This document shows, one piece after another, positions 1-64,000 of a stretch of 64,000 bases of DNA (positions are counted from its first letter, which is position 1; the number at the start of each line of letters is the position of its first letter). Origin of the DNA: Tribonema minus (Eukaryota; Sar; Xanthophyceae; Tribonematales; Tribonemataceae); the NCBI GenBank assembly GCA_017506865.1, contig JAFCMP010000073.1, positions 186,001 through 250,000 of the forward strand. The letters run 5' to 3'. The position numbers were made by a program, and so were the translations under genes. The notes beneath the pieces are model-generated. The model searched no databases. It worked only from the letters and a program-made list of their open reading frames with translations, and was not told where the DNA came from.

Positions 1-280
1 TTCATGAGCAGCTGCATTGAATTACTGAAGCACATAAATTCCTGCATGGGCAAGCACACAGCTCGCATTACCATCAAAGCCTAATTCAGGGCTGCGTGTT
101 GCTGGCACGGCGCGCGTGCCGCAGGTGTGGCAGCACTCTGCACCGAAGTTATCATCATCAACTAGTCAAACTCGATACTCACTTCTGAACCTGCAACTCT
201 AGCCTCACACCTGTCGAGCAACCCTAAGAGCAGCAGTGCCCCTTTTCAACATTCTGTCGGCAAAGGGCCTCGATTGCCAT

Positions 281-391
281 GTAACTGTTACGTAACCGCC
301 ATGTAACTGCCTGTGTAACTGCAGGCACGCGTACACGGCGTGGCTCGCGGCGCAACGCATACAACGCGAGCGCGCCCCGCCAGCGCCATCG
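281..391 (+). repeat. exon-echo of CFAP47 exon 1 start
   Basis: Intron end, acceptor and about 60 bases of exon are repeated (TAACCGCCATGTAACTGC then GCAGGCACGCGTACACGGC); the live copy is 393-510. Confidence 0.75.
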
Positions 392-442
392 CTAATGTAA
401 CTGTCAAGTAACCGCCATGTAACTGCTTGTTTAAAACTGCAG

Positions 443-749
443 GCACGCGTACACGGCATGGCTCGCGGCACAGCGCACGCAGCGCGAGGCTCGCGCCGCC
501 AAGCGTCAGGCACATCACCGCGCAGCGCTCGCGAAGTGCGATCCCGATGACCCTGAAGGCGGCCCTGACATTGGGTTTGAAAGGGGGTTAGAGGGGGACG
601 CACCTGTTCCTGACCTCCCCCCTGAGTTGTTGACAGACTCTCTGTTTCTGGTGAAGAGGGGGGGGGATGGGGGGGACAAGGAGGGGGGGGGGGCGCCCAA
701 GGGGCATCTTCACAGGGCTGTCAAGTACAAGGCGCAGCCTTCGTCGCAG
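443..749 (+). CDS. CFAP47: CFAP47 exon 1 of window
   Basis: Acceptor CTGCAG at 437-442 and donor GTGAGG at 750. The frame starts at 444 and reads HAYTAWLAAQRTQREARAAK, then DPDIGFERG, then KYKAQPSSQ. This resembles the charged helical linker before an ASH domain in CFAP47. It ends in phase 0. A degraded copy of its acceptor and first 60 bases lies just upstream at about 281-391. No earlier exon is visible in 1-280. Confidence 0.78.
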
Positions 750-3700
750 GTGAGGATGAACGCTGTACATACTGTATACATGGGTCAAATTCACTTCTTG
801 GAGTACTGAAGGACGTGACGCACCGCGTGAATGTACTTGAAGTTTCATTTGTGTTGCAGGTCGTACGAGTCTTGCATGCGCACATCAAGGCACGGATCAT
901 ATTAAAAACTGTACATGCTGCACATGGAGCAATTTTACCTCTCAAAATGCTTGACGATCGAAATTCAGCATGAAATTTCAGCTGAGCACTTCAGCACCTG
1001 TCAGTAACGCTGAGCACATGTCTAAAGTCTGCACGCAAGTCAGTGCTCACCCATCATCAGTGCTCAGCCTAACCCTACTCTAACCCTAATTAGGATCTGC
1101 TGACGCTCGGGTGTCAGATGCGAGCCACACAAAACTGTGAAAGCTTTGACAGGCGGAGGTATGCGAGTGTGCGACCCCCCATACCCCCGGGCCACCTGGC
1201 CACGGCCGTTGAACTCAGCGACCGTGCGATCACCATCAAAATCTGAACACAACGCTGCTGTGCTATCTCAGCGCTCCGCATTTGCACTCATCCATGCGCT
1301 CAAAACGTACATGGAACGCGCGAACGCGCCGCAGGCGGAGGTGCGCGAGTGCGCCAACCCCATACCCCCTGGCCAGCTGGCCACTGCTGTCGAGCTCAGC
1401 GAGCGCGTCATCGAGTTCGGCGCCGTATCGTCCGGCGCCGCCGTTGCGCGCGCGCTGCACGTCACCAACCGCCTACCCCACACCGTCAGGTTCGAGTTCA
1501 TAGGCGGCAGCGCGGACGGCAAGGCGCGCGAGCGCCTTCCTCAGGAACTGTCCGGGACCGGTCCCGCGGTGCAGATCGTTCCCGCGGGGGCGACGGCGCT
1601 GGTGGACGTCGCGCTGTGCGTGCGCGCCACCAAGGAGCAGGCGTTCCGTAAGCAGGTGAGCTCGGAGGGAGTACACTGGCAGTACACTTGGGGTTCAGTG
1701 CGGCTACACTGTGGCAGGACGGATACACCTGTGCGTGCGCGCCACCAAGGAGCATGCGTTCCGCAAGCAGGTGAGGGGGAGAGTACACTGTCAGCACACT
1801 TGTGGTCCACTGTGGGTACGGGTACACCTGTTCGTGCGCGCCTAAGGAGCAGCCATTCCGCAAGTAGGCGAGCTCGAAGAGCACGGTGCGGTAGTACATC
1901 GGCAGTACACATGGGGTTCAGTACAGGTACACGAGTGCATGCGCGCCACCAAGGAGCCGGCGTTCCGCAAGCAGGTGAGCTTGGTACGCACGGTGGTGCG
2001 TGGCGGTCCACTTGGGGTTCAGTGCGGGTACAACCGTGCAGGACATGGCGCTGTGCACGCGCGCATGACGGGTCTTCTTCGCGCCAAACAGCGGCAGCAG
2101 CGATGTAATTAAGCTCAACCGCCGGCACCCTTGCTGAAACCCTCACCCTGCCAAGTGACCATTCCTCCTAGCGCCCTCAACGCCCCTTACGTCAACAACC
2201 TCGTGCCCCCCTCCCCCCCCCCCCCCTACCTAGCTCAAACACTAACTTTTGACCCTAACCCTGAACCCGCGCAGGACCTCATCGCGCTGCACGGCGGCAG
2301 CAGCGGCGCGTGCAAGCTGACCGCCTTTAAAACGCCAAGTGACCATTCTTTCTAGCGCCCTGAAGCCCCCCTGATCACCACCTCCTAACCTAGCTCACAC
2401 ACTAACTTCGGCCCTGACTCTAACCCTAAAACCGCGCAGGTCTTCTTTGCGCTGAACGGCGGCAGCAGCGGCGCGTGCAAGCTCACTGTCACGGCGCTCA
2501 TCCAAGCCCCCACCCTCACCATCACCCCCCCCTCCCTGGCCCTTGAGTTCCCCCTCAACTCCGCCGACACCGCGCTGCGCCACGCCATCACACTCCACAA
2601 CCCTGGTGCCGTCCCCTGCGAGTACGCCTGGGGAGCGCTGTCGCGCGGCCGAGGCGCGTTCCGCGTGGAACCGGAGAACGGTTCCGTACCCCCCGGCGGG
2701 AAGGTCGCCGCGGAGGTCGTCTGGGCCCCGCAGGCAGGCCACAAGCCTTCCGACAAGCTGATCCTGTCGATAGCGGGGGGGGGGGATGTGGAGTTGCCTG
2801 TGGAGGGGAAGGTGGGGGAGGCAAGGTGCACGTTTTCGCTGCCGGCGGCGGGGGGGGGGGCGGGGCGGGGGGGGGGGCGGGGGGGGCTGTGCCACGTGGC
2901 AGCGCTCCTGCGGCGGCGGCGGCGGCGGCGCCCGCGGCACGCGTGGGCATTGCAGGTGAGCTTCAACAATTGCATGCTGTTCAAAATGATGATGACTTGG
3001 TACGAAGCGTTTGCGTGGAGCGTTTGCTGGCGCGTCGCATGGTGGCAGTTGAAGTACCGTACTGCAGAAGCGCGGCAGCGGCAGCATCAAGCGCTGCTGC
3101 GTCAGGGGCGGTGGCCCCTTGCGCCACCGCCGTTGGTGCATCTCATTGCAAGCTTCGCCTTTTTTTTCAACACACCTCTGACCCTCACGCTCATCTCAAG
3201 CAAGATCGCCTAGCGCCTGCAACCACATTGCGCCTAGGTACAGCGGCCGCACACAATGGCCACAGAACCTTGCCTTGCTGCCTCAAAATGCACCTCTCTT
3301 GATGCAGCTGCAACAGGCGGTTAGCCCAAGTGATGCACCTGTCCCCTTCCCCCAACCCTGACCCTAGCCCTAACCCTAACCCTCATCCTAACCCTAACCC
3401 TGCCACCCCCCACCCCCCTCCCCCGCACAGCGGCGCCTATCAAAGACGCGTCCGCGCCCGTCACCCTCGACTTCGGCACCGTCCCAGTCGGCGCCAAGCG
3501 CACTCGCACGGTGCGCCTAACCAACACGGGCAAGTGCGCCGCAGCGTTCCTTGTCGACAGCGCTCAGGACCTCGCGGACGCGTACGGCGTCACCGTCACA
3601 CCGCTCAGCGCGCGCCTCGAGCCGCGCGAGGGCGTCGACCTCACCGTCTGCCTCTACCCGCTGCAGCCGCTGCTGCTAACGGGTGTCGTCGTCAGCGTCA

Positions 3701-6700
3701 CCGTGCGCGGCGGCCGCGCCGCGCGCCTGATGCTCAGCGGCGACACGCTGCTGCCGGACCTCAGCGTCACGGTGCCCGGCGCCAACGCCGCCGCCGCCGC
3801 CGCCGCTGCTGCACCGCCATCTGCTGCCGCAGCGCTCGCCCCCGCTGCAGCAAACGGCGACGTCATGGCTGCCGCTGCTGCCTCCGATCCCGCCGCCACT
3901 GCTGCCGCAAGTGGCGCCAGCGGCGGCGACGAGTCAGAGTTGTCGTCCGCCGCCGCCACGGCAGCGGCAGCAGCGCCGCCGGAGCTGGCCTTTGGCACGC
4001 TCGCGATCGGCGCGCGCGACACCATGACGGTGGTTGTGCACAACCGCGCCGTCGTCCCGGCGGCGCTGCTCGCAGACTTAACCGACATGCCCGAGTTCTC
4101 GCTGTCGCGCGTGGGCGAGGCAGCGCTCAGCACCGACCAACACGACGACGACGGTGATGACGCGCTGAGCAATGCTGCGCGTCACGACATGGAGGTCGCC
4201 GCCGTGGACAGCTCGCTCGAGCGCCTGCGGGACCCGCCACCATCCGCGCCGCCGCCTACCGGCGCTGACAAGCGGCGCAGCGGCAGCATCGCGGCGGCCG
4301 CGATGCCAGCGGCACTCGGCGGCAAGGGCGCGTCCGCCAAAACTGCTGCTGCGGCAGCGGCAGCGCCGGAGAGGCGGCGGTGGCGCATTGTAGTGGCACC
4401 GGGCGTGAGCTTCCCCATCAGCGTGACATACGAGCCGCGCGTCCCGGGCGCGCACGACTTTGCGCTGCCGCTGACGTTCGAGTACGCCGCGAGCGCGCCG
4501 CTGCTGCCGGCGGACATGGCAGCGCTGCTGGCGCGCGCGACGGCGGCGCTGCGGCCGCGCGTCACGGCGGCGGCGGCGGCGCCGCTGCTGCAGCTGAGCG
4601 CGCCGGCGCTGGACTTCGGCGAGCGCATCGTGGCGCGCGACGCCGAGACGAAGGCCACGTACCAGGCGCAGGCGTCGCTGCGCAACGCGTCGCCGCGCGC
4701 GATCGCGTGGTGCCTCGACGACTCGGAGCTACGCGAAGATGCAGATCCCACGCTGACGCCGGTGTTCTACGTGAGCCCCACGAGCGGCGAGCTCGCGCCG
4801 GGGGAGGAGACGTTCGTGCGCTGCACGTTCGTGCCGCGCTGGGACGCGCGCTACGAGGCGACGCTGCCGCTGCACCTCGCGGCGGCGGTGCCCTCAGGCA
4901 AGGGCGGTAGCGTGCGGCCGTACTTGAAGTTGGGACTCCACGGCATCGGCGTGTATCCACGGCTCAGCTTCAGCTGCGACGAGGTGGTGCTGCCGGTGGT
5001 GCCGCTGGGGGTGCGCAGCGCGGCGCGCTTCCTCGTCGTCAACCAGGGCTTCTCCGAGCTCGAGGTCACGTACAGGTACGAGTATAATATGGTGTATTGC
5101 TGTATTGCTGAGCGATGAGCCACAATGCGGGGTGACCAACGGTGAGGTTAGGGCTAGGGTTAGTGGGAGTGGCATCAGCCAGGACGCTGGGCGCTGCGAG
5201 TCCAACGCATTGTTGAGGCAAGGGTGTTCTATGTTTTGTGATCGCATGCGGGTGGTACAGCTGTTCTGATCCTTGCTGCTGCCATTCAGATGTGTAGCAC
5301 AACTGGAGTGTATTGGTGGCAGTGATCATGCCTTTGTACGTCCTCTGCACACCGCTCAGCACGGCCACATGTGTACAGCTCCGCACGCCACGTCAGCACA
5401 CCCAAACCACGCCGCATTTTGTTGGACTTGCATTCATGCTGGTTAGTGAGCAGGCCACATGCTCCAAATCGGCCGTTGCTCCAAGCTGATCCAAAACGGC
5501 TTCACATTCAACTGAACTCCATCTACTTGAATGTGTTCTGCGCGGCGCTGATTGTGTGCTGCTGCTGCCGCTGCTGCTGCTGCTGCTCCTGCCGCCGCCG
5601 CCGCCGCTGCTGCTGCTGCCCCTGCTGCTGCTGCTGCTGAGCACTGCCGCAGGCTGCTGCCGCAGAGCCCGCCGGAGCTGCGCGTCGACTTCCCCGACGG
5701 AAGGACGCTGGGCGTCGGCCGCCCGAGCCTCTTTGTTGAAGTGACGTTCCAGTCCGACAAGCCTGCTTCGTTCAGCGTGCCGCTGGACGTGTTTGACAGC
5801 GAGAACGGCCAGTACAGCGTGACCGTCACGGGCTGCGCGGACAACTGCCTGCTCACAAACTGGCCATTTGTGGCCGCGCACGGTGAGTCAAACTTGAACT
5901 TGAAGTTGAACTTGGACAGTAGTACCCAGCGATTGTCGATGATGGACAACTTCGTGACCGCACACGGCGAGTCAAAGTTGAATTTGAGGTTGAACCTGGA
6001 GATTACCGATGACCACTGCCTGCTCGCCAACTGGCCCTGCATGGCCGTGCGCGATGAGAGGGTATTTTGAACTTGAGGTTTAACCTCAACAGTGCCCAGC
6101 AGCTGTGTACCAGCGGCGATGATGACGGACGACAACTTCCTGCTCTCCAACTGACCCTTCGTGGCCGTGCACGGCTGAGAGGCTCTTTTGAACTCGAGGC
6201 TGCACGTGAACATCGAGCGCAACAGCGACTTTTGTTGACGAGCTGCAAGCCAATGACTAACGTCATGAATTGAAGTACCTATGTGTAGTGTGACCGCTCA
6301 TACTCGTTTCTAGTCAACAGCTGCTGTGAGAGCCAGCTGCTCCTGATCAAGGGGCCTTGCTGGCTGTGCAGAGCGAGATTACCAATGACTTGGTACACCT
6401 ATAGACTGCCATGGTTGACTCGTTTTAGGGCGGTCAATGCCCTGTCGTCTCTATTCTGCTGCCTGTGCGGCCGTGCATGCCGACCTCCGTTGAGGTTGTG
6501 CCAACGAATTTCAACTTCAAGTTGTCGTCCCAATGCTATGGTTCAGGGCTGCACCGCTCCTGCAACTGTGATGTGGCTCATGCAAATGCTGAACCCTACG
6601 TACCCTTTCAACCGACAAAATAATTTGCGAGGCCGCGGAGCTGCTGACACTACGCATGAGGCGCTGCTGCTGCAGAGTCTTGACCGCTGCCGTTTGCATG

Positions 6701-9700: not shown

Positions 9701-12700
9701 CGTGCCTGAGCATCACCATCCAGCGCGGCCAGCGGTGTCAGGTGTCAGCGGCATTAACGTCAGCATGCTGAGCGTCCACCCTGAGCGTAGCCCTCATCAC
9801 AACCCCACAGCAATTGTCTTTACTCATGGTGTCCGCTTCCGCGTTGCGCAGCGTGGGCCAGCAACTTAGGGTTAGGGCTAGGTTAGTGGCAGCAACAGCC
9901 CAAACCCTATGGTGATACCTCATGAGCATTCATTCATTCACCCTGACCCATTCATTCACCCTGACCCTCGCCCTCATCACATTCGTTGCAACCCTCACAG
10001 CAATCGTCTTTACTCCTGATCTTGTTACTGAGCTATGCCGCGGGGGCCAGCACGGAGTCAGCGGCACCAACAGCAGGCCGAGCCTCGCTGCACATAGTTG
10101 TAGCAGCATGGTGATACTCTCACAGGCGCGCGCTGAGCGTTAACCCTGATCCCAGCCCTTGTGGCGACCCTCACCGCGATTGTGTTCTCTCATGGTGTCG
10201 TTTGTGAGCAATGCAGCGCGGGCCAGTGGTGTCAGCGGCACCAACAGCAGGCAGAGTCTTGGCGCGGCGCGCCCGCCCACTGGCCAGGCGCTCACGGGCA
10301 GAGCCGCCGTTGAGTGCGATGAGAAGAACGGCGAGTGGTGGGACAACCACAGCATGCAGGTACTTTTCTTCATATAAGTGATGATTGATCTATATATATG
10401 ATAATTGATTTACTGTAGCATTGACAAAGTCAACTGTACTCGGGCAGCGCTGCTGTTCAGCGCGACGATACGAACGGCAAGTGGTGCGGCAACCGAATTA
10501 TACAGACATGTTTGCACAAATCAGCCAGTTGCTTGATGTAATTGGTGAGTTAAACAGCGGCATATTACTCCACAATGCCTGGCCACGTGGCGCTAGTGTG
10601 CTGCAAGCACACGCATACATGGACAAGCTCATGTACATACATACTTGCCCTCCCTCACTATGGCAAATGGTACAATAGAGAGAACTGGGACGCGGCATCA
10701 CTGTGCCAGTGCTCAACAGTGAGTTTGTTTGCATTCATGAAGGATGTCCACATTCATGATTTGAACATTATGCATGTCATTACAGTTTGGGCACGCTGCT
10801 CCAGCCACAAACATGAGGCGCTGGCAGCGACGCCGGAAGACCTCGTGGCGTTTGAATGCCTCGCGGCATGCGCCTCAAGGTCTAAGAGTGCACGCCTGAA
10901 GTACACTGTACTCCTGTGTACTGTGCGCCGAACGGCAGACGTGGCCGTGCATCTATGGAGACCGCTTGTTCTCAGAGGCTGCGCAACGCGCACCTCACAA
11001 CATACAGTACACTGCCTGAAGAACGCTGTACTCCCTGTGTACCACGCCTCCCTGGAGGCGCGGTCGTGCATGCTCTCGGATGCTTTGCGATACGCACCTC
11101 GCAACATACAGTACACGCTTAAAGTACACTGTACTCCCTGTGTACCGCGCCGCACCGCAGGCATGGTCGTGCGTAATGCTGCAGGCCATCCGCGTGTTCA
11201 TGCTGTCCAGAGTGACGCCAAAGGCGCTGGCGGCGATGCCCTGTGGGCCAGCAGTGCTCAACCAGCAGCCATCCGCCGTGTCCTCGCTACCTGTGGCCTC
11301 AGATGGGGCGTCAACGCAGGTAATTGTTGAGGTTTGTGTTGAAGCTGACATATAACCCATTACATTTGCCCTGTGGGCCAGCAGTGCTCAACCAACAGCC
11401 GTCATCGCAGGTACTTGTTGAGGTTTGTGTGTTGAAGTTTGCATCCTGTCTGCCTGTGGCCTCAGAGGGGGCGTCATCGCAGGTACTTGTTGAGGTTTGT
11501 GTGTTGTTCACTTGTTGAAGTTTTCACTGTGTGTTCCGTGGCCACCAGTGCTCCAGCAGCCGTCCGCCGTGTCAGGACGTTCTGCTGCACCATAAATGCC
11601 CTCTTTCATCTTGAATCCATCTGAATATGGGAGGTAACCGTTGCTAACGCATGAGACTTTGCACATGAAATGTGCACTGCGCATTGCACTTGAAAACGAC
11701 ATACACTGCCACTCGCACTCAATGCACTTTCAGCTTAGAAGTACCAATGCGCTGCTGTTTGTCTCTCAGCACGCCAGCAAGAGCACCCGGGCGCCGTCAT
11801 CGGAGCCGCCGCCCGTCGCCGCCGCCGCGGCCGCCAAAATCGCGCCTACGCCAGACGTCACCGGCAGCAACGTCTACAGCGTCGGTGAATGTATCCTCCT
11901 CAAGTGGGTAACCGCCCTATCAGAAGCCATCTCGCAAGCTCAGCACCAGGCTGGTGCCGCCGCCGCAGCCGCGGCCGCCGCCGCTGCTGCCGCTGCCGCG
12001 GCCAGCCCCGGCATGGGCGCTGCCGCCGCTGCTGCCGCCGCTGCCGCGACGCACAAGAGCGCGGCGACGGCGCTGCACGAGCGCATCACCAACTTCAAGA
12101 ACGGTCTTTCGGACGGAACGGCGCTGGGGCGCGTTCTCCGCGCGCACTGCCCGCACCTCGCCGACGCGCTGTGGCGCGAGCCCGCGGAACTTGAAGACGG
12201 GGGAGTTGAAGTTCTGGCGGCGGCGCTGCGCGGCCTGCGCGCGCTGCGCTGCGACATGGGCGTCACGGTCGAAGATGTGACGTACGGGGGGCGCGGCGGC
12301 GGGCGCGATGCGCTGCTGCTGCTGCTGCACCTGTTCGCCGCGCTGCCGCAGCTGGTGCCCAAGACGGTGATTGAGTTCCGCGCGGCGCTGGGTGGGTCCG
12401 CGCGCAAGAGCATCGAGATCAGGAACCCCAGCGAGAGGGACATACAGTACGAGGTGACGCTGGAGGGGGCCGGCAGCGGTGATTTCAGGGCGCACGCGGC
12501 CAGGTGCGCTAGCCCTAACCCTAACACCAGCCCTAACCCTAATCCTGACCCTAACCCTACCCCTTACTGTTAACCGTTGCTCCAACTCGTATTGCGACTT
12601 AAACGCGCACGCGTCCAGGTGCGGTAACCCTAACCATAACCCCAACCCCTGCCCTAACCTAACCCTAACCGTTGCTGTAACTCGAACTGCGACGTCAGGG

Positions 12701-15700
12701 CGCACGCAGCCAGGTGCACTAGCCCTAGCATGATTTAGGGCAATGTAGCCCTTGCCCCAACTCTTATTGCGACTTCAAGGCGCATGCGACCAGATGCGCC
12801 AGCCCTAACCTCAACGGCTGCTCTAGTTCAAATTGCGACTTCAAGCCACAGGCGGTCAGGTCTACTAACCCTGACCCTGACCCCAACTCAAGGTTCTAAC
12901 CCAACCCCAGTCCTAACCTTAACGGAGGCGTCAAGGCGCTCGCCGCCAGGTGCATGCCAACGGACTCTTGGGCATCGACAATGGGAAACAGGCATCACGC
13001 TCAGGCTTAGGGCAAGGCAAATGCCACAGCGACCAGCTGCTCTAGCTTTATGTGCCACTGCTCCGTCAGGCATCACGTTTGTGCAGCGGGTTTGGTCACC
13101 CTATTTGTGACGATTACCTGTGTACATGGCGTCATGCATCATCTGCTGCAGGCTGCCCATAAGGACTGGCCGCAACGCCCAAATAGATGGGGACTGGCTG
13201 CACCGTCCAGTTGAAATTGTTTTCTCCGAATGCAATTCTCTGCGCTCACGCGCATGGTTGGCCAGACCAGCACCGCAAAACCGCTCCCCACGTACCCAGC
13301 TCATTTTTGCGGCACGTCGTATTAAATCAATGCTGCTTGTGACCGTGTGTACATATGCACCGCATCCTACTGCCGCAGACAGCTGATAGAGGCAGGCACA
13401 CATTAAATACAATTATCGCTGCTCCTCGTGACTCGGTGTACAACATTATCACGTCCTACTGTCACAGGCTGCTCATAGAGGCCGGCGGAACCGCCGAGAT
13501 AGCCGTGGATCTGGTGAGGGCGCGCTTCGCCGCCCCCGTGGAGGCACGGCTCACGTGCTGGGCGCTGAGGGGGGAGAGGGGGGGCATGCCCCCGGCATCA
13601 ACCATGGTCTTCCTACTGAGGTACAGCAGCTACAGAATGTCAAAGGGCTTAATGTGGAACTGCCTACACGTGATGTTATGATGTTGTCGGGAGTGCCGCC
13701 GGCACTGACCATGGCCTTCCTACTGAGGTACAGCAGCTGAAAACCAGCAAGGCTTGTTGTGGGACTGGCTTCACATGATAGTGTGATGCTGTCGGGCATG
13801 CGCCTAGCATGGACATGTGATGTTTTTGCTCAGGTGCAAACAGCAGCTGCAGACAGCCATGCATGTTGCCCAACTGGCTTGAGAGTCGCTGCACATTACT
13901 ACATTGTGCTGCCATCAGACTTGCCACCAGCATCCACCATGGCGTTCCGGCTCAGGTGCGGCAACTCAAGTCTGGCACCTGGCTCAATGAGGTGTTGTTG
14001 CTCAAGGGCAGCTACTGCATTGCTGTCTGGCATCAGGCTTCAGTGGGTTGCTGTCCTGCGGTGCCATCAGGCTAGGATGAGGGTTAGGGGTAGGGTTAGG
14101 ATTAGGGTTAGTTTTAGGGTTAGGGTTAGGGTTAGAGTTAGGGTTAGCGAGCAAGTTGCTGCTCAAGTTACCCATTTTGCGCAAACAGACGACCGTTGTT
14201 CAGCGCTTCTTGCGCAATGTCAGTCGGCACAACATACCTCGGAGCACTGAAGGTTTCCGTTGTGTAACTGCCACACTTTTCTGACCGCCATGCCCAGAGG
14301 TCGTGCGTGGACTCCGTGCAACCGCAGCAGCACCGCAGCCTTGCGCACTTTCAACCGACAAAACTCCAATGTTTGCAGTTCATTTGCCACTTTCTTGTAA
14401 CTGCCGTGTCGCGCGTGGACTCCGTGCAGGTGCAGCAGCGCCACGTCCCCGTGTGCAATCTCACCTGACAAAACGTTGACGGTTTTAGTGCATGTAACTG
14501 CCACATTTGTAACTGCCGCGCGCGCAGGTCGCGCGTGGACTCGGTGCAGCCGCAGGAGCGTCACACCCTCGCGGCGACGTGCTACGAGCCCGCGACCATC
14601 GAGCTGCACATCGCCAACCCCTTCGTAACGGACGAATCCGGCGTCAGCAGCGGCTCAGCGGCAGAGAGCGCCGCCGCCACCATCGCGGAGCTCGCCGCGG
14701 GCACATGCAAGTTCACAGTTGAACTTCGCCAGGAGCTGATCGCGCCGCACGCTTCGCTGGCCGGCGCGCTGAACCGCGGCAGCGGCGGGCGCCCCCGGAC
14801 GAGCTCGCAGCGCGCAGCGACGCCTCACGGCAGCAGCGGCGGCGGCAGCAGCGTCAGCCCCAGCAAAGGCAACTTCAAACATGGCGGCGGCGAGGGGGGG
14901 GGCCTGGCAGGGGGTCGGGGACCCCGCGGGAGTCAGTTACAGCGGAGCGTCGCCGCCGACATGGATCCCCTCGTTGTTGAGGTTCTGGAGGCGCTGAGGA
15001 GCCCGTTCCACGCGGCGGCGGCGACGCTGGTGGTCCCCGCGCGCGGGCGGGGGACGTTGAAGTTGGTGTGCCTGCCGTTCGCGCCCGGCGCGTACGCGTG
15101 CACCGTGATGCTGCGCCACGAGCGCCTGGGCGAGTTTGCGGTCGCCGTGCACGCGGACGTCGCGCTGCCGACAGCTAGCAGAGCGCCCCCCATGACTGTT
15201 ACGCCGGAGGCGGGAGTGGTGGGTTCCATGCAGAGGGAGCTGCGCGTGCCGAGCAAGAACGTCGCTCTGGCTGCGGCGGTGACCACGCTGGTGGAGAGGT
15301 AAGCACCTGAAGTTAGGGAGCTAGGGTTTGGCGGATTCTCAACCACACAACACTATCATTCAAAAGCATGACGGTTGCAGGTAGCACGACCAATTGATCT
15401 TCGACCACTTGAACTACCTCCAGAAAGCATTTAAAAGTTTTTGGTACCACGACCAACTACTCTCAATATTCAATTACATGAGGATTGTGCTTACAAACAA
15501 TGTGCTCAGGTACCACGGCCGCATTGATCTCCAATTACTTGAACTTCCATCACTCAAACTGCCTCACAAAAACATCACGGCCTCATACCACGCCCCAACT
15601 AGTGATCTTCAAATACATGACCTTTGTGTCCTTGCAACACGATGTGGGCAGGTACCAAGGCGACGCGCGCACCAAGGCACGCGCCGCCCTCGCCAAGTAC

Positions 15701-45961: not shown

Positions 45962-46140
45962 GAGGGGGGGGGGGGTTCACGCAGCTCACGGGCTGGGAAA
46001 GGGGGGTTCACGCAGCTCAAGGCCTAGGAGGGGGGGGGGGTTCACGCAGCTCAAGGCCTAGGAGGGGGGGGGGGTTAGGCAGCTCAAGGCCTAGGATGGG
46101 GGGGGGGGGTAGGGGTACGCAGTTCAAGGCCTAGGACGCG
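45935..46140 (+). repeat. tandem copies of the PH-like gene's stop-codon end
   Basis: About five copies of GGGTTCACGCAGCTCAAGGC CTAGGAGGGGGGGGG after the live TAG, with period of about 35-45 bp. Confidence 0.95.
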
Positions 46141-50970: not shown

Positions 50971-52290
50971 CTGCAGGGGCAGGGGGGGGGGAATACGGAG
51001 GAGGATGCGTGAAGGTGCCGTTCCCATACTTGAAGTACGTGTGTGCTAGTGTGTGTGTTGTTGCAGTTGCGCTGCGCTGCAGCTTGGGCGCGGCGAATGC
51101 GCGCCTGTCGCGCGGGGCGACACCAGGCGAGGACGAACGCAACGCGCGAACGAACCTTGGCAACCTGCTCGCATTGCACGCCGCCGCCACTCCAGCGCAC
51201 TCACCAGTAGATTTTCACACTTGAGGTCGTTGTGCATGACGCCGTGGTCGTGGAGGTAGGCGAGGCCCGTGAGCAGCTGTCGCACGTAGCGGCGCGTCAT
51301 GGCGTCGCTGAACTTGCCATACGTCGCGAGGCGGCTGCTCAGCGAGTTGCCCGGCACCCACTCCTGGAAGATGAGGAGCTTGGCGTCCGCGGTGTGGACC
51401 TGGAAGGAGTCACAGAGTCATGAGTACGAGTCATGAGTATGAGTCATGAGTGAGGCGGCTGCTCAGTGAGTTGGCCGGCACCCACTCCTGGAAGATGGGG
51501 AGCTTGGCGTCTGCGGTGTGGACCTGGGCGCAGGGGGAGTGAGTCACAGAGTCATGAGTATGAGTCATGAGCATGAGAGCAGTGCAGGCAGGCGCCGCTG
51601 CAGTTCAGCTTCAGCCCTCACAGGTGTCATCCGCTGCATGTTGCCTCCTGCTGGTGTCTGTACTGTATACAGCTGGCATGGTAGCAGCGGCAGCATGGCA
51701 GTACATACTGGACATGCAGCAGCGTCGTCTCTCTGCAGTCTGCGTACCTCAAAGCCCAGGTATCGCACCACATTCGGGTGGGAGAGCGCCTGCATCATCA
51801 TGATCTCCCTCGTGAGCTCCTCCAAGCCGGACTCATTGGTGCGTGAAGAGCTGATGGCCACCTCCTTCACGGCAAACTCGACGCCACTGTCTGCATTCAT
51901 CGCCTTGTAGACCCGGCCAAACGATCCCGACCCTATGTTCTCGCCAACCATCCAATGGTCGGGCCGCACTCTGTCGGCACTGCTGCTGCTGTCAATCGGC
52001 GATGTGGATGGTGATGACGACGCCCCTCGCTCCTGCTGCCGCTTTCTCACTCGTCTGTGTTGCTGCTGGTCGTCCCTGCTTCTGCTGTCGCAGCTGCTCG
52101 GTGGCGACGCACAGGGGCTGAGCGTCGCACTGCTTGTAGCTGTGCTGCTCGTGAGGCCGCCATCGCTGCTGACGCTGCTGTGGTGCCACAAGAACTTGGC
52201 AGGTTGGGCTGTGAAGCGAGGCGACTGCACCACTGCAACCGAGAGCGGCTCCAGCTCTACGCCATCCAACTGTCGAGGACTCAGCCACAT
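48706..52290 (-). CDS. MAP3K-like Ser/Thr protein kinase, 1000 aa
   Basis: Three exons (52290-51748, 51399-51205, 50970-48706), all phase 0, encode exactly 1000 residues. Catalytic domain at about 111-375: glycine loop GENIGSGSFGRV (116-127), Lys142 in FAVKEV, Glu162 in the C-helix, FQEWVPGNSLSSRL at the hinge, catalytic HND at 237-239 (Asn replaces the usual Arg of HRD), DFG at 257-259, and GTPYFMAPEIII for substrate and APE. The closest family pattern is MAP kinase kinase kinase (MEKK/ANP type). Residues about 400-1000 are Ser/Gly/Ala/Pro-rich, probably disordered and regulatory. The predicted role is a cytosolic signalling kinase with unknown substrate. The non-RD loop suggests regulation without activation-loop phosphorylation (inference). 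Confidence 0.9.
51205..51399 (-). CDS. kinase exon 2 (catalytic loop)
   Basis: 65 codons, phase 0 at both ends. It reads VHTADAKLLIFQEWVPGNSL, then MTRRYVRQLLTGLAYLHDHG and VMHNDLKCENLL. The codons are CAC AAC GAC, so HND is in the genome sequence. A copy of its start is at 51454-51535. Confidence 0.93.
51454..51545 (-). repeat. exon-echo of kinase exon 2 start
   Basis: Copy of 51328-51405 (GCGGCTGCTCAGnGAGTTGn CCGGCACCCACTCCTGGAAG). Between them are ATGAGTATGAGTC short tandem repeats (51417-51450). Confidence 0.93.
51748..52290 (-). CDS. kinase exon 1
   Basis: ATG at 52288-52290; a Ser-rich N-terminus of about 110 residues, then DHWMVGENIGSGSFGRVYKA through LSHPNVVRYLGFE. Donor GTACGC, phase 0. 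Confidence 0.9.
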
Positions 52291-55841: not shown

Positions 55842-56154
55842 TCACGGCGCCTTCTTCGGCACCGCGCCCGTGCTGCTCCTCCTGCTGCCGCCCGCCGCCG
55901 CCGCCGCTGCGGCTCTGTCCGCCCCCGGCTGAGGGCTGCTCCCCCTGCTCCCCCCTACACCGGTACTACCAGCCGCTGCCGCTGGCAGGGGCAGCTTGCT
56001 GGGACTGGTGTTCGTAGGCGACGCCGCTGCGGATGATGGCGCTGAGAGGGTGGCGGCGGGCGTGACGCCGAGGGACTGCAGCTGAGCCGTGAGCGCGTCG
56101 ACGGTGCGCTTGCAGCGTGAAACTTCCGCAGATTCGGCGTTCTTCTTGGCGGGG
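55842..56154 (-). CDS. kinesin terminal exon
   Basis: Poly-C tract and CTGGCAG acceptor. It joins as GGC and reads [20 protein letters not shown], then [12 protein letters not shown] and a Ser/Ala/Gly-rich tail ending [12 protein letters not shown] at 55842-55844. The short helix after the motor may be a neck-like extension. Confidence 0.9.
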
Positions 56155-59100
56155 CTGCCAGGGGGAAAGGGGGGGGGGGGGGGGCGCGGGACGGGTGTGA
56201 GCGGCGTCACTCAAACTGCAGGCGCTTGAGGAGTGTCACACTTCTGCATGTGTCGTTGCGATTGCAGGGATTGAGCCGTGAGCGCATTGACGGCGCGCTT
56301 GCAATGTGACACTTCCGCGGACTCCGCATTCTAGTACTTGAAATTGTGTCATTGCAATGGCAGGGGTTGAGCCGTGAGTTATCAATTGCGCGCTTGCAGC
56401 ACGACACCTCTGCTGACTCCGCATTTCATGTTTGCGGGCTGCGTGCTGAGGTTGGATGCAAGCGCGTCACCTCACGTGCAAGCGCTTGAAGAAGTATCAC
56501 ATCTGTTCCCTCATGTTCATGAGAAATGCAAGGCGCAATGTTGTGATGCTGGGACCCGGGGTTGCTGAGTGTCAGAAGTGGAGTTTGACTCATTCTAAGT
56601 GAGAGATGAGAGTCGTCTTGAGCTTCGCTTGCAAAGCACACGTACATGCCTGATAAACAACGAGGAGTCAAAGTCGTCATGAAGCGTGTTTTGGCTCTCC
56701 GTGAGGTGCAGTCACAAGAGCTTCAATGTCTAAACACAGCCACGTTTTCATGCTGTTGCTCGTGGCATGATGCGATTTAGTTGGAATGAAGTGATTTAGT
56801 TGGAATCATGGGCCTTAATCACATGCTGAGCACTTGATGCATGATTTTACTCTTATCAGGAATCGGTGGGGTGTCCTCCCCCCCCGGCCGCACACACCAC
56901 ACACGCATGCCCGTGGCCTCAGTACAGGTTGCTACTGTCGTATGGTGTCCCACGATATTGTCTGCTTCATGCCACCGGCTCACGCGGTGTACGGCGGCTG
57001 AAAATGCATTTTTGGTGTGGCTGAATGCTTTCTGCAAGGTGCAATTGCTCGCGCGTTGCCACACACGCACATATGATTGGTGCACACCATGTCAAATGTA
57101 TTCTATTGTAGGCAGTCATCATCGCCAGCTGCAACGTGCATGCTCTCGCTGTGTGTTGCAGCTGCTGTACGTTTGTTGTTGAGGGCGCCTGTTGCAACAA
57201 CCTCAAGAAAGCACGATGAAACGATGTCGACACAGCGCGCTTTGCACTCGTAATGGGACAAACTGATGCTATCTATCATGGGCTGTCGGCTGCTATCCAC
57301 GGCGCGCTGGCAAGCACCGTGGGGCAAGCAATTACAGGACTCGGCCTCTGAAAAAAGCGCAGAACTTCAAACGAAGGCTGCTTTTGCTGCTTGCTCGCGC
57401 CATGAAGCTGCCGGTGAGCGTTGGTGGGCTGGGCTACTTACAATACGTTGCTACAGTGCCTTACGGGGCCTCACTAGGTGCCGCTCAGCTCGTATGCTGC
57501 CTTGCGGCTCGACTGTTTCTATGCGCCAGCACACTGGGGGGGGCACCCTAGTTGTGGCTCTGCTACCAATTCTTGTTTTTGTGTCGCACCTTATGAAACA
57601 CGAGGAAAAGAGGGGCACAAAAATTGGAATTGGTGGGAAAGCCCTACCTTCCACCCCCCACTTATTACCACCACTGATTCCAGAGAATCAGTTGTGTGTG
57701 TCAGCGCTCAGCTTGAAGCGGGGCAGTCAGCCCTCGCGCTGCGTACCTCATCGAGGCCATGACTCAAAGGGCAACCTATGTGATGCACGTTTTCGAAGCA
57801 TCCATTTCTGCTTCGCAGGCAGAAAAAGCCTCTTTACTTATCCCGGCTCAACTGCTCAGCAACGCGCGGCAAAGTTGCTCCGCAGCGCACGTGATTCATG
57901 GCATCAGTTGCTCAACTGACACAACTATAATGCTGTGTGGTGTCATCAAAACTGTACAGGACCCCCCACCGACTGGTGCGTGTGCTCTACACTTCAAAAA
58001 CTTGGATTCGTGTCTGTTCAAAAAGTACTCATCTAGAAGCATGCGCTTACCCCAGCTCCACTGGCAGCGGCAGCACAGTTCAGCGCATGAGATTATTGAC
58101 TTTAAGGGCACCTACGCAACACACGTTTCTGAAGTATCAGTTCCTGCTTAGGGCGCAAAAAACGCCTCCATATACTTACCCCAACTCCACTGCGCAGCAG
58201 CGCGCAGCAAAGTTGAGCAGAGCTTCAGATGCCCAACTTACACCAACATGATGCTGTGTCACGGCCCCGCATTGACTGGCGCATGCGCTGTACTTCAAGT
58301 TCACGGAACCATGTCTGCTCAGAAGCGTACACAGAAGCACATGCTTACCCCAGCTCCACTGCTCGGCAGCGCGCAGCAAAAATGAGCACACGAGACCATG
58401 CCATTGGATTGTAAGGGCACCTACGTAATACTCGGAAACAAGGGCACCTAAATAGTGCACGTTTCTGAAGTATCAATTCCTGCAAAAGAAAGCCTTATGT
58501 ACTTACCCCAGCTCCACTGCCCGGCACCGCGCGGCGAAGTTGAGCGAGCAGATCGTTTCGCCCAAGTTGTAGGCGGCTGGGCTGACGTTGCAGAACATGA
58601 GCGTCTGCACGGCACCACACAAACAAGCACCCAAGACATGCGCATGGGTAAGCACATTGGTCAACGCAGATGATTGCATTGCAGCGTCTCGATGCAGGCA
58701 AGCATTGGCGGCTAATGCATTCACTCTCCCTGCTGGTTTTCGCAGCTGAGCACCAGCCAGCCCCCCCCCCCCCCCCCCCCCCCCCTGATGCACTTTCCTG
58801 CAGGGGCTTCCGTCGAAACAGGAGGGCTGCATGGCGATTTGGGGGGAGTGATGCGCCTTGTGGACGACTGCATCTTAGTGCCGCGAGCTGCGCTGAAGGA
58901 ATCAGCCAACCTCGTCAGGATGCCTGAGGTAAGGCAGTCGCTACTACACCAGATTGTCTGGTCAGGCAATGAGACATAGCAGCGGCAAGCACGCAGCACT
59001 TGAAAATTGAGAAGTGCGCCTCCGTGTCGGCAGCCCGACCCCCAGTGACATCGCTCCGCACGGTATCTGCATTCTCTGACGCTGTCTCTAGGTATGCGGG

Positions 59101-62100
59101 TACGCTGCAGCAGCGGTCTATCTCAGTGCGACTGTGAGCACATCGTCGCAGCGACGGGCGCCGACTCTCATCGGCCGTGCGGCCCTCTCACGGGCAATCG
59201 TTTTGCATGGCCAATCGACGAAAGAAGCTGATCTTTGGCTGCAGTGAACATGGCGCACTGAGTTTCACTGTTGTACTTGAAGTTCGCTGTTCATACCTTG
59301 CCGCCGCCGCTGAGGCAGTCTTGAAGTAGATACGTGAGCTTCGAGTTCCTGAAGGGGATGTGGCTGCCCTTTGACCTGCAACACGGGGGGACAATGCGGC
59401 ATTACGGCGACGTGCTGTTAACAGAGCGCAGAGGTGCGTGGCTCTGTAGCCCTAGCCCTCATGATGACGTCACCCAGCGCGCTCAGCGACCGATTGATAT
59501 TCTGCGCCTCCTTCAGGCGGTCGCCGCTGGCGCAAGCTCAACTTCTTGGTTCAACATCTTGATTCAATACGGCATTACGGCAACGTGCTGTTAACAGAGC
59601 GCAGAGGTGCGTGGCTGCGTAGCACTAGGCCTTATGATGACGTCGCCCAGCGCGCTTAGCGAGAGCAGTTGATGTTATGCGCCTCCTTGAGTTGGTCTTT
59701 CCCTCCTTCTTGCAGATTTGCGCCTCCTTTGACCTCTCTTTGCAACTTGAAGATTTGATCAAACAATGTTGAAGTCACAGCGCGATGACGTGCCCAGCGC
59801 GCTCAGCAAGCGGTCAACTTTCAACTTCTTTCTTCAAATTTTGAAGTCGCAGTCTAAAATACGTCAATTATGATTGGTAGGCTTCGATTGCCAGGGCCGC
59901 TCACCGCTTGGTGGCGTCACGCAGCACGCTCAGCAACCGATTGCTGTTGTGCGCCTCCTTGACACGGTCGCCACTGGTTTAAGTTCAACCTCTTAACTTC
60001 ATGTGTAGAGTTGTGGTAGGAATTCGAGCTACATAGGGCGGCTGCTCACCGCGTGGCGAGCGCCGCGATGACATCGCCGAACGCGCTCAGCGAACGATTG
60101 ATGATGATCTGCGCCTCCTTCAGGCGGCCTAACTTGTAGTGTAAGATTGAGATCACGACTGAAAAATGTTGAAGTTACAGTTGAAGATTCAAGGGCTTCT
60201 CACCGCGTGGCGAGGGCCGCGATGACGTCACCCAGCGCGCTCAGCGAGCGATTGATGTTCTGCGCCTCCTTCAGACGATCGCCGCTGGCGTCCGTCTTGC
60301 CGACTCTCTCGGAGCCTGCGAGGTCGATGAGGTTGAGCTTGGCGCGCGTCGCGGCGCCGTTGTGTGCGTTGACGCCATTCACGTGTATGCACACAATCAT
60401 GTGCGAGCGGCTAGAGTGCTCGTTCATGTCGTGGCTGCCCACGGCGCGCGCCTTGTTGGCCTGCTCCAGCTGCGCTGTCACCTGCGCAGTGTGGTGAGCA
60501 ATGCAACGCTCTGTGTGAGTACATCAAGTTGGCGTGTGTGTGTGTGAGGGGCGGGGGGGGGGAGGGGGGGGATTGAGAAGTGTGACATGAAGCTTTCAGC
60601 GTGATGTGACACAGTGTGTTGGCCTGCTCCAGCCGCGCCGCCACCTGCGCGCGTGTGGCGAGCGGTGTGATGCAGTGTGCTGAGCATTGAGCACAGTGCA
60701 GCGCAGTGTGCTGAGCTGTGTGACGCAGAGTGTTGAGCGGTGCGACGATGTGTCTTGAAGGGCATGATGCACAACAGACACACGGACTCCGTGAGAACAC
60801 CCAGCCCGCTTTTTCCAAGCCAATCGGATGTACCGCGTCAGGTGCTGAAAGTTTCCTCCGAAGAGGTTATTATCCATGTCCAAATAAGTACATGCTGTAT
60901 AACGCTTGCGACAGTATCCTTTCATGTGCATGTACGCACCGTCTGGCCACCCCAAACAATATTCATGTGCTTCATGTTATTCTTACAAGTGTGCCATCGC
61001 AAGTTTATGTACTCATGTACTGTACTTCAAAGTATATGCTTGAAGTATACATAACAGTTGTCGTCTAACCCCCACCATTTCCATGCTGTCGACCTCCACA
61101 GCCGCCAGCCCTGGCACAATAATACCAGCAGCGCCCTGCCTGATATCAAGCCCCCGCCCCCTCTCCCCCTTCCTGCCGCTGGGGGTGGGGGGTGATGAGC
61201 CGCTGACACCGCCCCCCGTGGCAGCAGCAGCAGCGCTCGACGTGGTAGCGCTGTCGCTCAGGAGGTCGTAGATGGACTCGTTGTAGATCTCGAGAACGCT
61301 CAGTGTGAAGCTGCATTGCGGGGGCACACGATCGCAACATCAAGTTGCTGAGTTGAAAATGCCAAATTGAAGTATTCTGAACTCATGGACTCTTGCAGCA
61401 CTCATGAGTGAAGCGGCAGCGAGCGCAAAAAAAGGAGGCTGCTGAGTTGAAGTTGCTGAGTTGAAGTTCATGACGGCCCCCAGGTGATCAGTGTGTGACC
61501 GGTGTGTGCTTCTTGAGTGCACGTCCTGTGCAGCGACATAAACTGCACTCGACCAACGAACTTGGACACTCTGGATATATGATCGGTACCGCCAAAGAGA
61601 TGTGGCGTGACAATCATGGCACCTGACACTTTGGGTGAAATGAGGTGCCCCAATAGTTGCACTAGCACACCTAGAATTGCCCTCATTCAGGGCGACACAA
61701 AGCCTTGATGAGCAATGCCTCACAAGTAGTACACTTGCTACAAGTGCAATCGATGTCTTGCAACAAGATGACACAACATGCAACCACGCTGAATGCTGAG
61801 CGTGCTGCGCAGCGAGACTCACGCGTACTTGATGTCGTGTGAGCGCTGACGTCCCAGCTCAAACAGCGTCTGCATCAATAATCAATGTTTCAGGAGTAGT
61901 ACGCTTGCTACGAGTGGAATCTACGTCTTGCAACAAGATGACACAACGCTCAACGACGCTGAATGCTGAGTGTGCTCACACGACATCATCGCGACTCACG
62001 TGTAGTTGATGTCGTTTGAGCGCTGCCGTCCCAGCTCAAACAGCGTCTGCATCAATAATCAATGTTTCAGGAGTAGTACGCTTGCTACGAGTGGAATCTA

Positions 62101-63557
62101 CGTCTTGCAACAAGATGACACAACGCTCAACGACGCTGAATGCTGAGTGTGCTCACACGACATCATCGCGACTCACGTGTAGTTGATGTCGTTTGAGCGC
62201 TGCCGTCCCAGCTCAAACAGCGTCTGCATCGCGCGCGTGTTGACTCCGGGGTTGGCAGCATCTCCCTCTGACACAGGCAACAGGCGCCGCACGAATGATA
62301 TAGAACAGCTGAAGTTGCAGTTGAAGTGAAGTTGGGGGTGAAGTGAACATGGAGATTACCAAGTACGAGAGACCGATGGCATCAGCACAAATGACGTAGC
62401 AACAGGTAAGAGTACACCAGAGTACACGTGTGTACTCCCCTGCACTGCGTGCATGTGACTACTGGGCTATCTCAAGGGTACTTGTAGGGGGAAATAGGCT
62501 TCGGGCAAAGTGGGGCGGGGTGCAGATATGGTGACAATGCTCAGCAGTGTGTTTGTTGTGCATTACGCTGGCAGCGTCCTTAGTGCTGGCAGGCGTCAAC
62601 AGAGCAGACCATACCGGCTTGTGAGTCCACCACCAGGTGCACATGAACAACCAACGAAACAGAAATCCTCACAAATATGAAACATATCGACCGATGAGTT
62701 GATGGTACAGCAGTAGAAGCCAGGTCGTGATCAGGCTCAGCAGCAACAGCATATTTTGCTCTGTCGGCAGATATGTTCATTTATTTATAAGCAGAAAGGG
62801 AGCGCCGCGCCAGCACCAACTGAATACTTTCAAGGTACAACAAGGAGCGTTCAACGTAAATGCGACAATTCAAACGTTTGACAACAATACATACACTCAT
62901 ACCTTCGTGCAGTGAAAACGGTGAGAGAGGGGATACCTCAACAGTAAAGACCCACAAGGAGCACTGCCCCACCGTCTAGGTTCTGAAATTGAAGTACGAT
63001 ACTTTGGCATTCACACGCAGCACGCGAGGAGCGCCTGCTTGCTTCTACCGCCGACACTCCTGCACTCTAGGTGAGCTACCCTTTTAAGAACATTATAGGT
63101 GGAAGGCACTTGCGGCTAACCATCCCTTGTCACCTGGAGCGCAACGATCTTTTTGATTCGTTTTTCATTACACAATTCACCTATACACACCGCAATCTGG
63201 TGTTGAGACCGGCCAAACCCTTACCCTCATTCGAGCCCCATGCGCAGTACTACAGTGGCTCACTTACCCGTCGTCGAGGTATGTGAGGTCAAGTATGCTG
63301 TGTGACAGCACGCGAAGCGCGCCTGCTTCCTTCCACCCATCTCATGCACGACAATCTGGTGATAGTTTAGCACTATCGCATTCTTGTGTTGAAGTTAGCC
63401 ATAATCTATGGCCCTGCCCTGTGCGCATTACTACAGTAGCATACTTACCCATAGTGAAGGTCTTGCCGGAGCCAGTCTGGCCATAGGCAAATATAGCCAC
63501 GTCGAAGCCGTCGAGAACGCTGACAATGAGGGGGTGCACCCCCTCAAACACTTGCTC
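55842..63557 (-). CDS. kinesin, C-terminal motor (kinesin-14-like), 5'-partial
   Basis: Microtubule motor. Seven exons join in perfect phase from the P-loop to the stop. Motor landmarks: [21 protein letters not shown]-loop [25 protein letters not shown], switch I NEHSSRSH, switch [68 protein letters not shown], ending [12 protein letters not shown]. Only about 100 residues follow the motor, so the motor is C-terminal; with the VELGPAKK end this fits kinesin-14 (KIFC/Kar3 class, minus-end directed in known members). The first part of the motor and the stalk lie beyond 63557 or off the right edge. A role in the spindle or cilium cannot be told from this window. Confidence 0.93.
56240..56430 (-). 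repeat. exon-echo copies upstream of kinesin terminal exon
   Basis: Two copies of CAGGGnTTGAGCCGTGAG, CGCGCTTGCA and ACACnTCnGCnGACTCCGCA TT, matching 56080-56140. Confidence 0.85.
57830..58400 (-). repeat. exon-echo copies of end of kinesin motor
   Basis: Four copies (57838, 58050, 58180, 58347) of ACTTACCCCAGCTCCACTG and CAGCGCGCAGCAAAGTTGAG with the donor complement mostly intact. Confidence 0.9.
58507..58604 (-). CDS. kinesin exon: end of motor
   Basis: Reads [20 protein letters not shown], then [13 protein letters not shown]. Phase 2 end (GG before GTAAGT). Four diverged copies of the exon end follow (57838, 58050, 58180, 58347). Confidence 0.94.
59297..59375 (-). CDS. kinesin exon: NSKLT
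   Basis: A 79-nt exon that joins as CGG and reads [20 protein letters not shown], then LSGGGK. Donor GTATGA, phase 0. Confidence 0.94.
59440..60130 (-). repeat. exon-echo array of kinesin switch exon end
   Basis: Five copies of GATGACGTCnCCCAGCGCGC TCAGCGAnCGATTGAT and TGCGCCTCCTTCAGnCGG at about 59460, 59635, 59780, 59915 and 60068, spaced 130-170 bp. A second motif (GGCATTACGGCnACGTGCTG TTAACAGAGCG) is duplicated inside (59388 and 59570). Confidence 0.93.
60204..60481 (-). CDS. kinesin exon: switch I and II
   Basis: Acceptor CTGCGCAG. It reads [20 protein letters not shown], then [32 protein letters not shown] and [20 protein letters not shown]. Phase 2 end (CG before GTGAGA). At least five older copies of its end extend to 59440. 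Confidence 0.95.
60610..60725 (-). repeat. exon-echo of kinesin switch exon start
   Basis: Copy of GGCCTGCTCCAGCnGCGCnG nCACCTGCGCnnGTGTGGnG AGC (60619-60665), then shorter GTGTGCTGAGC repeats. Confidence 0.85.
61076..61310 (-). CDS. kinesin exon: EIYNE
   Basis: Joins as ACC and reads [20 protein letters not shown], then an Ala/Gly/Ser loop insertion and [26 protein letters not shown]. The donor GTGGGG is weak but the phase (0) fits the next exon. Confidence 0.9.
61690..62176 (-). repeat. 177-bp tandem exon-echo units
   Basis: 61864-62040 and 62041-62217 are identical over 177 bp; the latter overlaps the live exon end. A third, older unit at about 61690-61863 is diverged (for example CGCGTACTTGATGTCGTGTG for CGTGTAGTTGATGTCGTTTG). 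Every unit includes 47 nt of exon and the donor. Confidence 0.97.
62177..62267 (-). CDS. kinesin exon: after P-loop
   Basis: Acceptor GTGTCAG, phase 1 (G+AG). It reads [20 protein letters not shown], then [10 protein letters not shown], the GV-R-L-ELF helix of kinesins. Phase 2 end at GTGAGT. The exon end is tandemly repeated upstream in plus coordinates as exact 177-bp units. Confidence 0.93.
63449..63557 (-). CDS. kinesin exon: P-loop
   Basis: Reads [20 protein letters not shown], then [16 protein letters not shown]. Phase 0 start, phase 1 end at GTAAGT. A diverged copy of its start is at 63743-63810 and an echo of its donor region is near 63225-63295. Confidence 0.95.
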
Positions 63558-63739
63558 CTGTCATCAAGGGGGGGGATTAAGAGTCAAATTAGCAGACATG
63601 ACGTCTTCATCGCATGCGTGACTCCTGCTGAAAGTGTGAGATTAACGACGTCTCGTTTGGGGCGCGAACAAAGCCCACAAGGTGAACGTCAAGCGTGCTA
63701 CTACTAGTATTACAGCATCAGCGAATGGGGTCGCGCGTC

Positions 63740-63815
63740 CAAGCCATTGCGAACGCTGTCAATCAGTGGTTGCACCCCCTCAAACACTTGCTCCTGTCAT
63801 CAAGAGGGGGGTTCA
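63740..63815 (-). repeat. exon-echo of kinesin P-loop exon start
   Basis: AACGCTGnCAATnAGnGGnT GCACCCCCTCAAACACTTGC TCCTGTCATCAAG is shared with 63517-63570. Confidence 0.93.
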
Positions 63816-64000
63816 GCGGTCAAAAAGCGCACATGACGTCTTTGTCAGTGTACCTTACTACACAGGTGAACCAGGCGTTCTGGTGCAAGGGGGCGCCAAT
63901 CACATACTCTCATACTTGAAGTACTTGAAGTCCAGATATCCAAGCGCATGTGGAAGTCGTCACTGAAGTACCACGCACCCCCAACGCAACAAACGATGCA

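Follow-up and report, generated by a model that had tools for sequence, protein, structure and literature searches.

The source of intron DNA is an old question, since the sequences from which introns arose have usually been erased (PMC4974935). The closest described cases involve tandem duplication. In potato, a single tandem duplication across an intron-exon boundary created a new intron in one gene, with the splice signals inherited (PMC4974935); the introduction of the same paper also recounts intron creation of the Rogers type, by duplication of an exon segment containing AGGT, and other tandem-duplication cases are reviewed there. Retention of neutral sequence near conserved borders has been described as border-induced selection (PMC9748784), and the atypically long introns of Chlamydomonas relatives have been ascribed to a driver that is likely ancient and is left unnamed in the available part of that text (PMC8226300). 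Here we describe a 64,000-nt stretch of the genome of the xanthophyte Tribonema minus (assembly GCA_017506865.1, contig JAFCMP010000073.1, positions 186,001 to 250,000 of the forward strand; the window), in which introns carry degenerate tandem copies of the edges of their own neighbouring exons. All positions below are those of the window.

Exon-edge copying in the introns of the window is real. Self-comparison of the window gave 86 direct and 4 inverted repeat pairs, and 77 of the direct pairs lay within 500 bp. Edges were taken from a curated set of 47 exons and 42 introns (84 edges, five genes), set by hand from reading frames, splice sites and protein similarity. Exon-only probes, consisting of 100 nt of exon edge compared with the exon's own intron, found 54 direct and no inverted copies at 29 of the 84 edges. 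These copies were 69-100% identical to their exons, and because of that range a duplicated assembly is unable to explain most of them. Junction-spanning probes (45 + 45 nt across the exon-intron border, compared with the adjoining intron) found 78 copies at 38/84 edges and in 31/42 introns, on both strands; at equal score, matches were obtained with 2/84 inverted probes and with 1/84 probes compared with one random other intron each. The sequence-only reading of the window had claimed at least 30 affected edges on both strands, which the count bears out, and had placed them in nearly every long intron, which 31 of 42 does not. The same reading took the arrays to be exon-specific and not a transposon family, and this is upheld: arrays match their own exon and hardly other introns, which argues against such a family. 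The comparison that it proposed, own against other introns, was run on predicted exons, and 28 of 72 window edges scored higher against their own intron than against any of 40 others; 0/72 inverted probes rose above their 200 shuffles. At z > 4, predicted exons gave copies at 26/72 edges in the window and 41/190 in the wider sample defined below, with none for inverted probes.

The copies are organized around the junction, which is crossed by 46 of 51 distinct extended copies; 72 of the 78 copies are confined to the intron half that adjoins their own edge. Both counts support the earlier proposal of repeated local duplication at exon boundaries. Affected edges carry 1 (18 edges), 2 (9), 3 (6), 4 (3), 5 (1) or 7 (1) copies, with a mean of 2.05, so that multiple copies are found as claimed and the claimed range of two to ten was overstated. 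The exon part of the first copy measures 11-73 nt (10th-90th percentile; median 37) and single copies exceed 100 nt, against a claimed 20-120 bases. Copies are spaced at a median of 128 bp (quartiles 98-172) without preference for multiples of three (28/22/28), and the periods within an array are regular, as in minisatellites (mean log ratio of successive periods 0.310 vs 0.436 shuffled, p=0.001, 20 arrays). At the exon-only threshold, copying involves 16 donor and 14 acceptor edges. Exon bodies are barely copied, with 2/86 body probes (1/86 inverted) giving matches vs 30/84 edge probes (0/84 inverted); internal repeats were seen in four exons and were taken for low-complexity stretches. A head-to-tail unit is near complete in two arrays aligned by eye, and in the freshest array (kinesin gene, period 177) one copy shows no difference from the real unit in either its exon or its intron part.

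Median intron length was 430, 672 and 907 for introns with copies at 0, 1 and 2 edges, respectively (n = 11, 24 and 7). With a 130-bp margin allowed beyond the last visible copy, junction arrays occupy 15.1 kb of the window's 34.4 kb of intron DNA; with an equal margin the figures are 11.3 of 26.8 kb for other kinesin loci and 18.1 of 82.1 kb for the wider sample, or 22-44% over the three sets. The source of intron DNA is thus readable here.

Five protein genes were recognised in the window, which comes from a 158-Mb assembly of 554 contigs. These are a FAP47-like cilium gene (+ strand), whose closest solved relative is Chlamydomonas FAP47 (E 5e-51, first 1002 predicted residues); a K-Cl cotransporter-like gene (- strand) matching SLC12A7 (E 1e-103); a third gene at about 43517-45961 (+ strand) without Pfam match; a protein kinase gene (PF00069, - strand); and a kinesin gene (PF00225, - strand), whose closest solved relative is KIFC3. 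All five of these unrelated genes are represented, as the sequence-only reading had it, with an uneven share of affected edges (19 in the FAP47-like gene, 11 in the cotransporter, 6 in the kinesin and 1 each in the third gene and the kinase). A scan of the window against Rfam at gathering thresholds returned no match. Probable GC-AG introns occur at 36543, 33777 and 18353, in the cotransporter and FAP47-like genes. The arrays and copies located in the window are as follows.

1153..1231, + strand: acceptor-edge copy of exon 1335-1655 (FAP47-like gene), 79% over 78 exon nt, beginning at the junction
1656..2056, + strand: donor-edge array of exon 1335-1655; copies at 1729-1770, 1828-1867 and 1935-1974 (95/80/92%), spacing 115, 97, 107
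2072..2321, + strand: acceptor-edge copies of exon 2440-2955, at 2072-2149 (69%) and 2279-2321 (90%)
5883..6238, + strand: donor-edge array of exon 5653-5882, spacing 84, 87, 120; copies at 6011-6053 and 6131-6173
9971..10085, + strand: acceptor-edge copy of exon 10217-10359; three junction copies with the spanning probe
10441..10540, + strand: donor-edge copy of exon 10217-10359, exon part 75%
11320..11573, + strand: donor-edge array of exon 11185-11319; copies at 11367-11403, 11444-11482 and 11540-11573
12504..12905, + strand: donor-edge array of exon 11770-12503; four weak copies, spacing 115, 95, 80, 66
13621..13992, + strand: donor-edge array of exon 13468-13620, found with exon-only and spanning probes
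14248..14451, + strand: acceptor-edge copies of exon 14528-15298 (80%, 81%)
16277..16412, + strand: donor-edge copy of exon 15652-16173, by extended alignment
19492..19799, + strand: donor-edge array of exon 18753-19491, period about 170
20613..20734, + strand: donor-edge copy of exon 20339-20510, exon part 94%
20994..21096, + strand: acceptor-edge copy of exon 21239-21513, 71% over 91 exon nt
21752..21958, + strand: acceptor-edge copy of exon 22102-22482, 86% over 110 exon nt
26138..26241, - strand: acceptor-edge copy of exon 25929-26016 (K-Cl cotransporter-like gene), exon-only probe
27438..27758, - strand: acceptor-edge copies of exon 27106-27219 (93%, 87%), spacing 267, 237
30422..30926, - strand: donor-edge array of exon 30927-31127; four copies, spacing 99, 196, 104, 111
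31672..32125, - strand: acceptor-edge array of exon 31567-31671, period about 102
32507..32836, - strand: donor-edge array of exon 32837-33121, period 119 (91/88/85%), aligned by eye
33179..33429, - strand: acceptor-edge copies of exon 32837-33121 (90%, 86%)
37819..38075, - strand: acceptor-edge copies of exon 37500-37721, exon-only probe
39722..40372, - strand: donor-edge array of exon 40373-40481; seven copies, main period about 62
45336..45575, + strand: acceptor-edge copies of exon 45659-45961 (third gene; 77%, 89%)
45962..46135, + strand: last codons and stop of the third gene, four times in the 3' flank; identities 0.83, 0.97, 0.90 and 0.77, best inverted score 19
51452..51604, - strand: acceptor-edge copy of exon 51221-51399 (protein kinase gene), 94% over 72 exon nt
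56260..56438, - strand: acceptor-edge copies of exon 55845-56154 (kinesin gene; 70%, 79%), exon-only probe, missed by the spanning probe
57767..58506, - strand: donor-edge array of exon 58507-58604, spacing 158, 169, 129, 209
59463..60203, - strand: donor-edge array of exon 60204-60481; five copies over most of the intron, spacing 154, 145, 138, 148, 173
60617..60684, - strand: acceptor-edge copy of exon 60204-60481, by extended alignment
61726..62176, - strand: donor-edge array of exon 62177-62263, period 177; the nearest copy matches the real unit without difference over 54 nt of exon and the intron part

Copies also follow a stop codon, so splicing itself is perhaps not the target. Among the five stop-codon edges tested, copies were clear at one (third gene) and weak at another (kinesin), where two weaker copies were detected by the spanning probe only. 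None were found at the stop codons of the other three genes; the inverted control of the kinase itself scored 44-52, a low-complexity effect.

The copies appear to decay without coding constraint while the exon is conserved. Identity was 0.865 in the exon part vs 0.784 in the intron part of the 39 copies with both; better preservation of exon parts would be expected if only one partner of an exon pair is free to change. Mismatches between copy and exon at codon positions 1, 2 and 3 numbered 93/956, 86/957 and 223/948, with two edges left out of the codon-phase counts (cotransporter intron 1 and kinesin intron 2). Where all copies agree against the exon, the differences were distributed 2/3/26 by codon position, and because 26 of these 31 shared differences sit at the third position the exon is identified as the constrained partner. 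Stops occurred 9 times in the copies vs 8.7 expected, and indels were present in 23/57 copies. Splice dinucleotides were intact in 17/25 donor copies (GT) and 13/16 acceptor copies (AG), which by impression is roughly the survival that drift would leave. Cells may face several near-identical splice sites per intron. The gene finder used here labelled many copies as exons, and in the kinesin gene a copy-derived predicted stretch (query residues 203-264) did not align to the solved relatives shown, where the segment occurs once. Annotators of such genomes should be warned accordingly.

Copies recur elsewhere in the genome. About 248 kb of DNA outside the window was analysed, with exon borders predicted by a custom gene finder whose training set was the window plus 19 of the 20 sampled stretches. 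A kinesin set was drawn from a genome-wide list of Pfam matches (seven places, of which five yielded edges), and the wider sample comprised 20 arbitrarily placed 10-kb stretches, 17 of them with predicted edges. Copies were found at 23/46 edges of the kinesin loci, in four of the five, and at 42/184 edges of the wider sample, with no inverted matches in either set.

We think it likely that recurrent junction-spanning tandem duplication makes introns grow from exon borders. A segment of roughly 60-250 bp straddling an exon border, with tens of bases of exon plus intron, would be repeatedly duplicated in tandem into the intron side. The outermost splice site, attached to the rest of the exon, would stay in use; the duplicate would thereby be silent, become intron, lose coding constraint and decay. 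With repetition, older copies would be shifted inward and introns would lengthen from the exon borders. Growth of this kind is probably continuing at present, and older copies would be expected further inside the intron. The edge bias itself appears to be mutational, with duplication starting more often where coding meets non-coding sequence; we favour a bias in where duplications arise, with unequal exchange enlarging the arrays later. A broader version is put forward tentatively as quite possible: a border-preferring mutational process, acting at splice borders and at least one stop codon, may copy 60-250 bp outward and be a main source of intron DNA, intron length then being a balance between duplication and decay.

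The placement of arrays was determined with and without reference to exons. When arrays were detected without the exons, 30 of 35 in the window began within 40 nt of an exon, where random placement gave 8-16 (lenient threshold, 9 inverted pairs admitted), and in the wider sample 25 of 41 lay within 60 nt of an exon against 8-15 expected, a result that holds at two stricter thresholds. After masking of the junction arrays, the ratio of edge to internal arrays was 38:9 in the window, 23:7 in the kinesin set and 42:9 in the sample, and 5 of the 7 arrays remaining in the kinesin set lay within 53 nt of an edge.

These figures bear first on the possibility that duplications occur anywhere and the conserved exon acts as a permanent seed, edge-bearing arrays being re-expanded by unequal exchange or slippage and the others dying out. 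We regard this as somewhat unlikely, with a real chance of being right. It fits the regular periods within arrays, the newest copy of the freshest kinesin array, which reuses old unit borders, and the copies beyond the stop codon. In simulations of unequal exchange, the share of arrays in contact with an edge was 70, 88 and 90% at the three settings, near the 86% of the real arrays. The same simulations gave an edge-to-internal ratio of only 1.3-2.0, accumulated 5-12 copies per edge against a mean of 2.05 and shrank introns to 167-282 bp, although with three settings only, better ones may exist.

Uniform tandem duplication along the sequence is improbable. Under it, edges would look special through purging of duplicates inside exons, the longer recognisability of exon sequence and selection against deletions close to exons (border-induced selection), itself a published model (PMC9748784). 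It accords with the lack of copies of exon bodies, with the better preservation of exon parts and with the finding that 60-nt windows contain local repeats just as often 30-300 nt inside the intron as directly next to the exon. Against it stand two simulations of uniform duplication incorporating purifying selection, exon conservation and protected borders, which produced edge-to-internal ratios of 0.9 and 0.8 and placed 39-49% of arrays against an edge, short of the ratios in all three sets and of the 30 of 35 found without exons. Arrays elsewhere in the sampled introns are also few (9 in 64 kb), near the intergenic density of 3 in 30 kb. The pooled edge share of 103/128 has a probability of 7e-15 under p=0.47, a value only as good as the simulation model. 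This null had seemed sufficient on a first tiling, where repeats were plentiful inside introns as well; it fell short with curated exons and with exons left out.

That the copies are kept for function, as spare or competing splice sites or as alternative exons, is very improbable. The intact GT and AG dinucleotides, the concentration of mismatches at the third codon position and the deficit of amino-acid changes given below would suit it, but the differences shared by all copies indicate that it is the exon that has changed, stop codons reach the number expected, indels are common and a stop-codon edge is copied too. A mobile element, introner family or assembly artefact can hardly be the explanation. 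A few further repeats between genes (47503-47662, 47750-47975) would suit it, but exon-only copies are all direct, copies of one array differ in divergence, and a match to a random other intron was limited to a single edge; array borders were inspected in two alignments.

Several results weigh against growth from exon borders by junction-spanning duplication, the reading that we prefer. Exon and intron parts of the unit together account for a median of 0.58 of the first period; among 38 edges, only 29% reach a coverage of 0.8 or more. An age gradient is absent in the exon parts (34/68 pairs) and weak in the intron parts (45/69 pairs, p=0.03). Changes private to single copies lean to the third codon position (53/40/69), and codon differences that change the amino acid number 182 vs 252.5 for an even spread (s.d. 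13.7); both may stem from synonymous change in the exon between successive duplications. The simulations represent one simple model at few settings, and the exchange variant also brings 70-90% of arrays to an edge. Local repeats are more frequent in intron outside the arrays than in intergenic DNA (0.10 vs 0.03; 60-nt windows, score 25), so that duplication is not confined to edges. The real exon's own splice sites are presumed, from sequence, to be those in use. Finally, the wider sample is uneven, with copies at 0/66 edges at seven loci (L009, L011, L014, L017, L019, L021 and L027) vs 20/26 at two (L023 and L025), a disparity matched by 0 of 5000 shuffles. The copying for which the sequence-only reading claimed a general intron-growth process recurs outside the window and is not universal, since seven of 17 sampled loci lack it at every predicted edge. 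False predicted genes may be part of the difference between loci; the coding score of predicted genes showed no relation to the loci lacking copies (rho -0.02). GC content did not separate edges with copies from those without (0.661 vs 0.641, p=0.11), and locus L011, with a GC content of 0.69, had copies at 0/14 edges.

Repeats of other kinds were noted in passing. Telomere-like CCCTAA/TTAGGG hexamers occur in window introns, for example at 6717-6779, 14080-14147, 20265-20319 and 9133-9294: the 34 kb of intron hold 54 in sense and 33 in antisense, the 13.8 kb of exon none and the 9.4 kb of intergenic DNA 8. Introns of the first two genes are often marked by them. Their density is 1.53 per kb in the window and, as a rough figure, 0.455 in the sample, and in the window they show no clustering around exon edges. 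The word TTGAAGTT/AACTTCAA and its relatives are 5-7x over-represented relative to a third-order Markov model in the window and in the fetched loci. Positions 47281-47662 and 54221-54530 appear by eye to be copies of one dispersed repeat with partial reading frames, and L015:1-8816 contains two overlapping long reading frames (1547 and 1463 codons) resembling a transposable element.

Among known systems, intronic minisatellite or variable number tandem repeat arrays consist of degenerate tandem units with a regular period. The arrays described here resemble them in degeneracy, in a unit of tens to hundreds of bases and in regularity, and differ in that the junction between the neighbouring exon and the intron is part of most units. 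Introners and introner-like elements are shared by many introns, unlike these arrays, which by the comparisons above are specific to their own exon. The Rogers-type model, as we understand it, makes the head of an intron resemble the head of the downstream exon and its tail the tail of the upstream exon. Such cross-resemblances were found in 0/42 and 0/42 introns of the window, where old events may be decayed beyond detection; the likeness to Rogers-type gain, as outlined in the introduction of PMC4974935, lies in a tandem duplication that carries splice-site sequence. Border-induced selection (PMC9748784) is a retention effect that on its own does not predict insertions copied from the border, and simulation that included it fell short of the edge excess. 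In the comparison with Chlamydomonas relatives, the shared ground is green algae with atypically long introns, for which border duplication is a testable candidate driver (PMC8226300). The sequence-only reading knew of no system matching the scale seen here, and this agrees with the literature search: genome-wide exon-edge arrays are not described in the titles or abstract openings of the matches listed, subscription papers lying outside the search. A single case of junction-crossing duplication is already in print, and the scale here is without match among those listings. That case, the new potato intron as described in PMC4974935, is alike in that a segment crossing an intron-exon boundary was duplicated in tandem and its splice signals were inherited. 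It differs in extent, being one event that made a new intron, whereas in the window introns already in place hold copies by the score, with as many as seven at one edge, and are apparently being lengthened by them.

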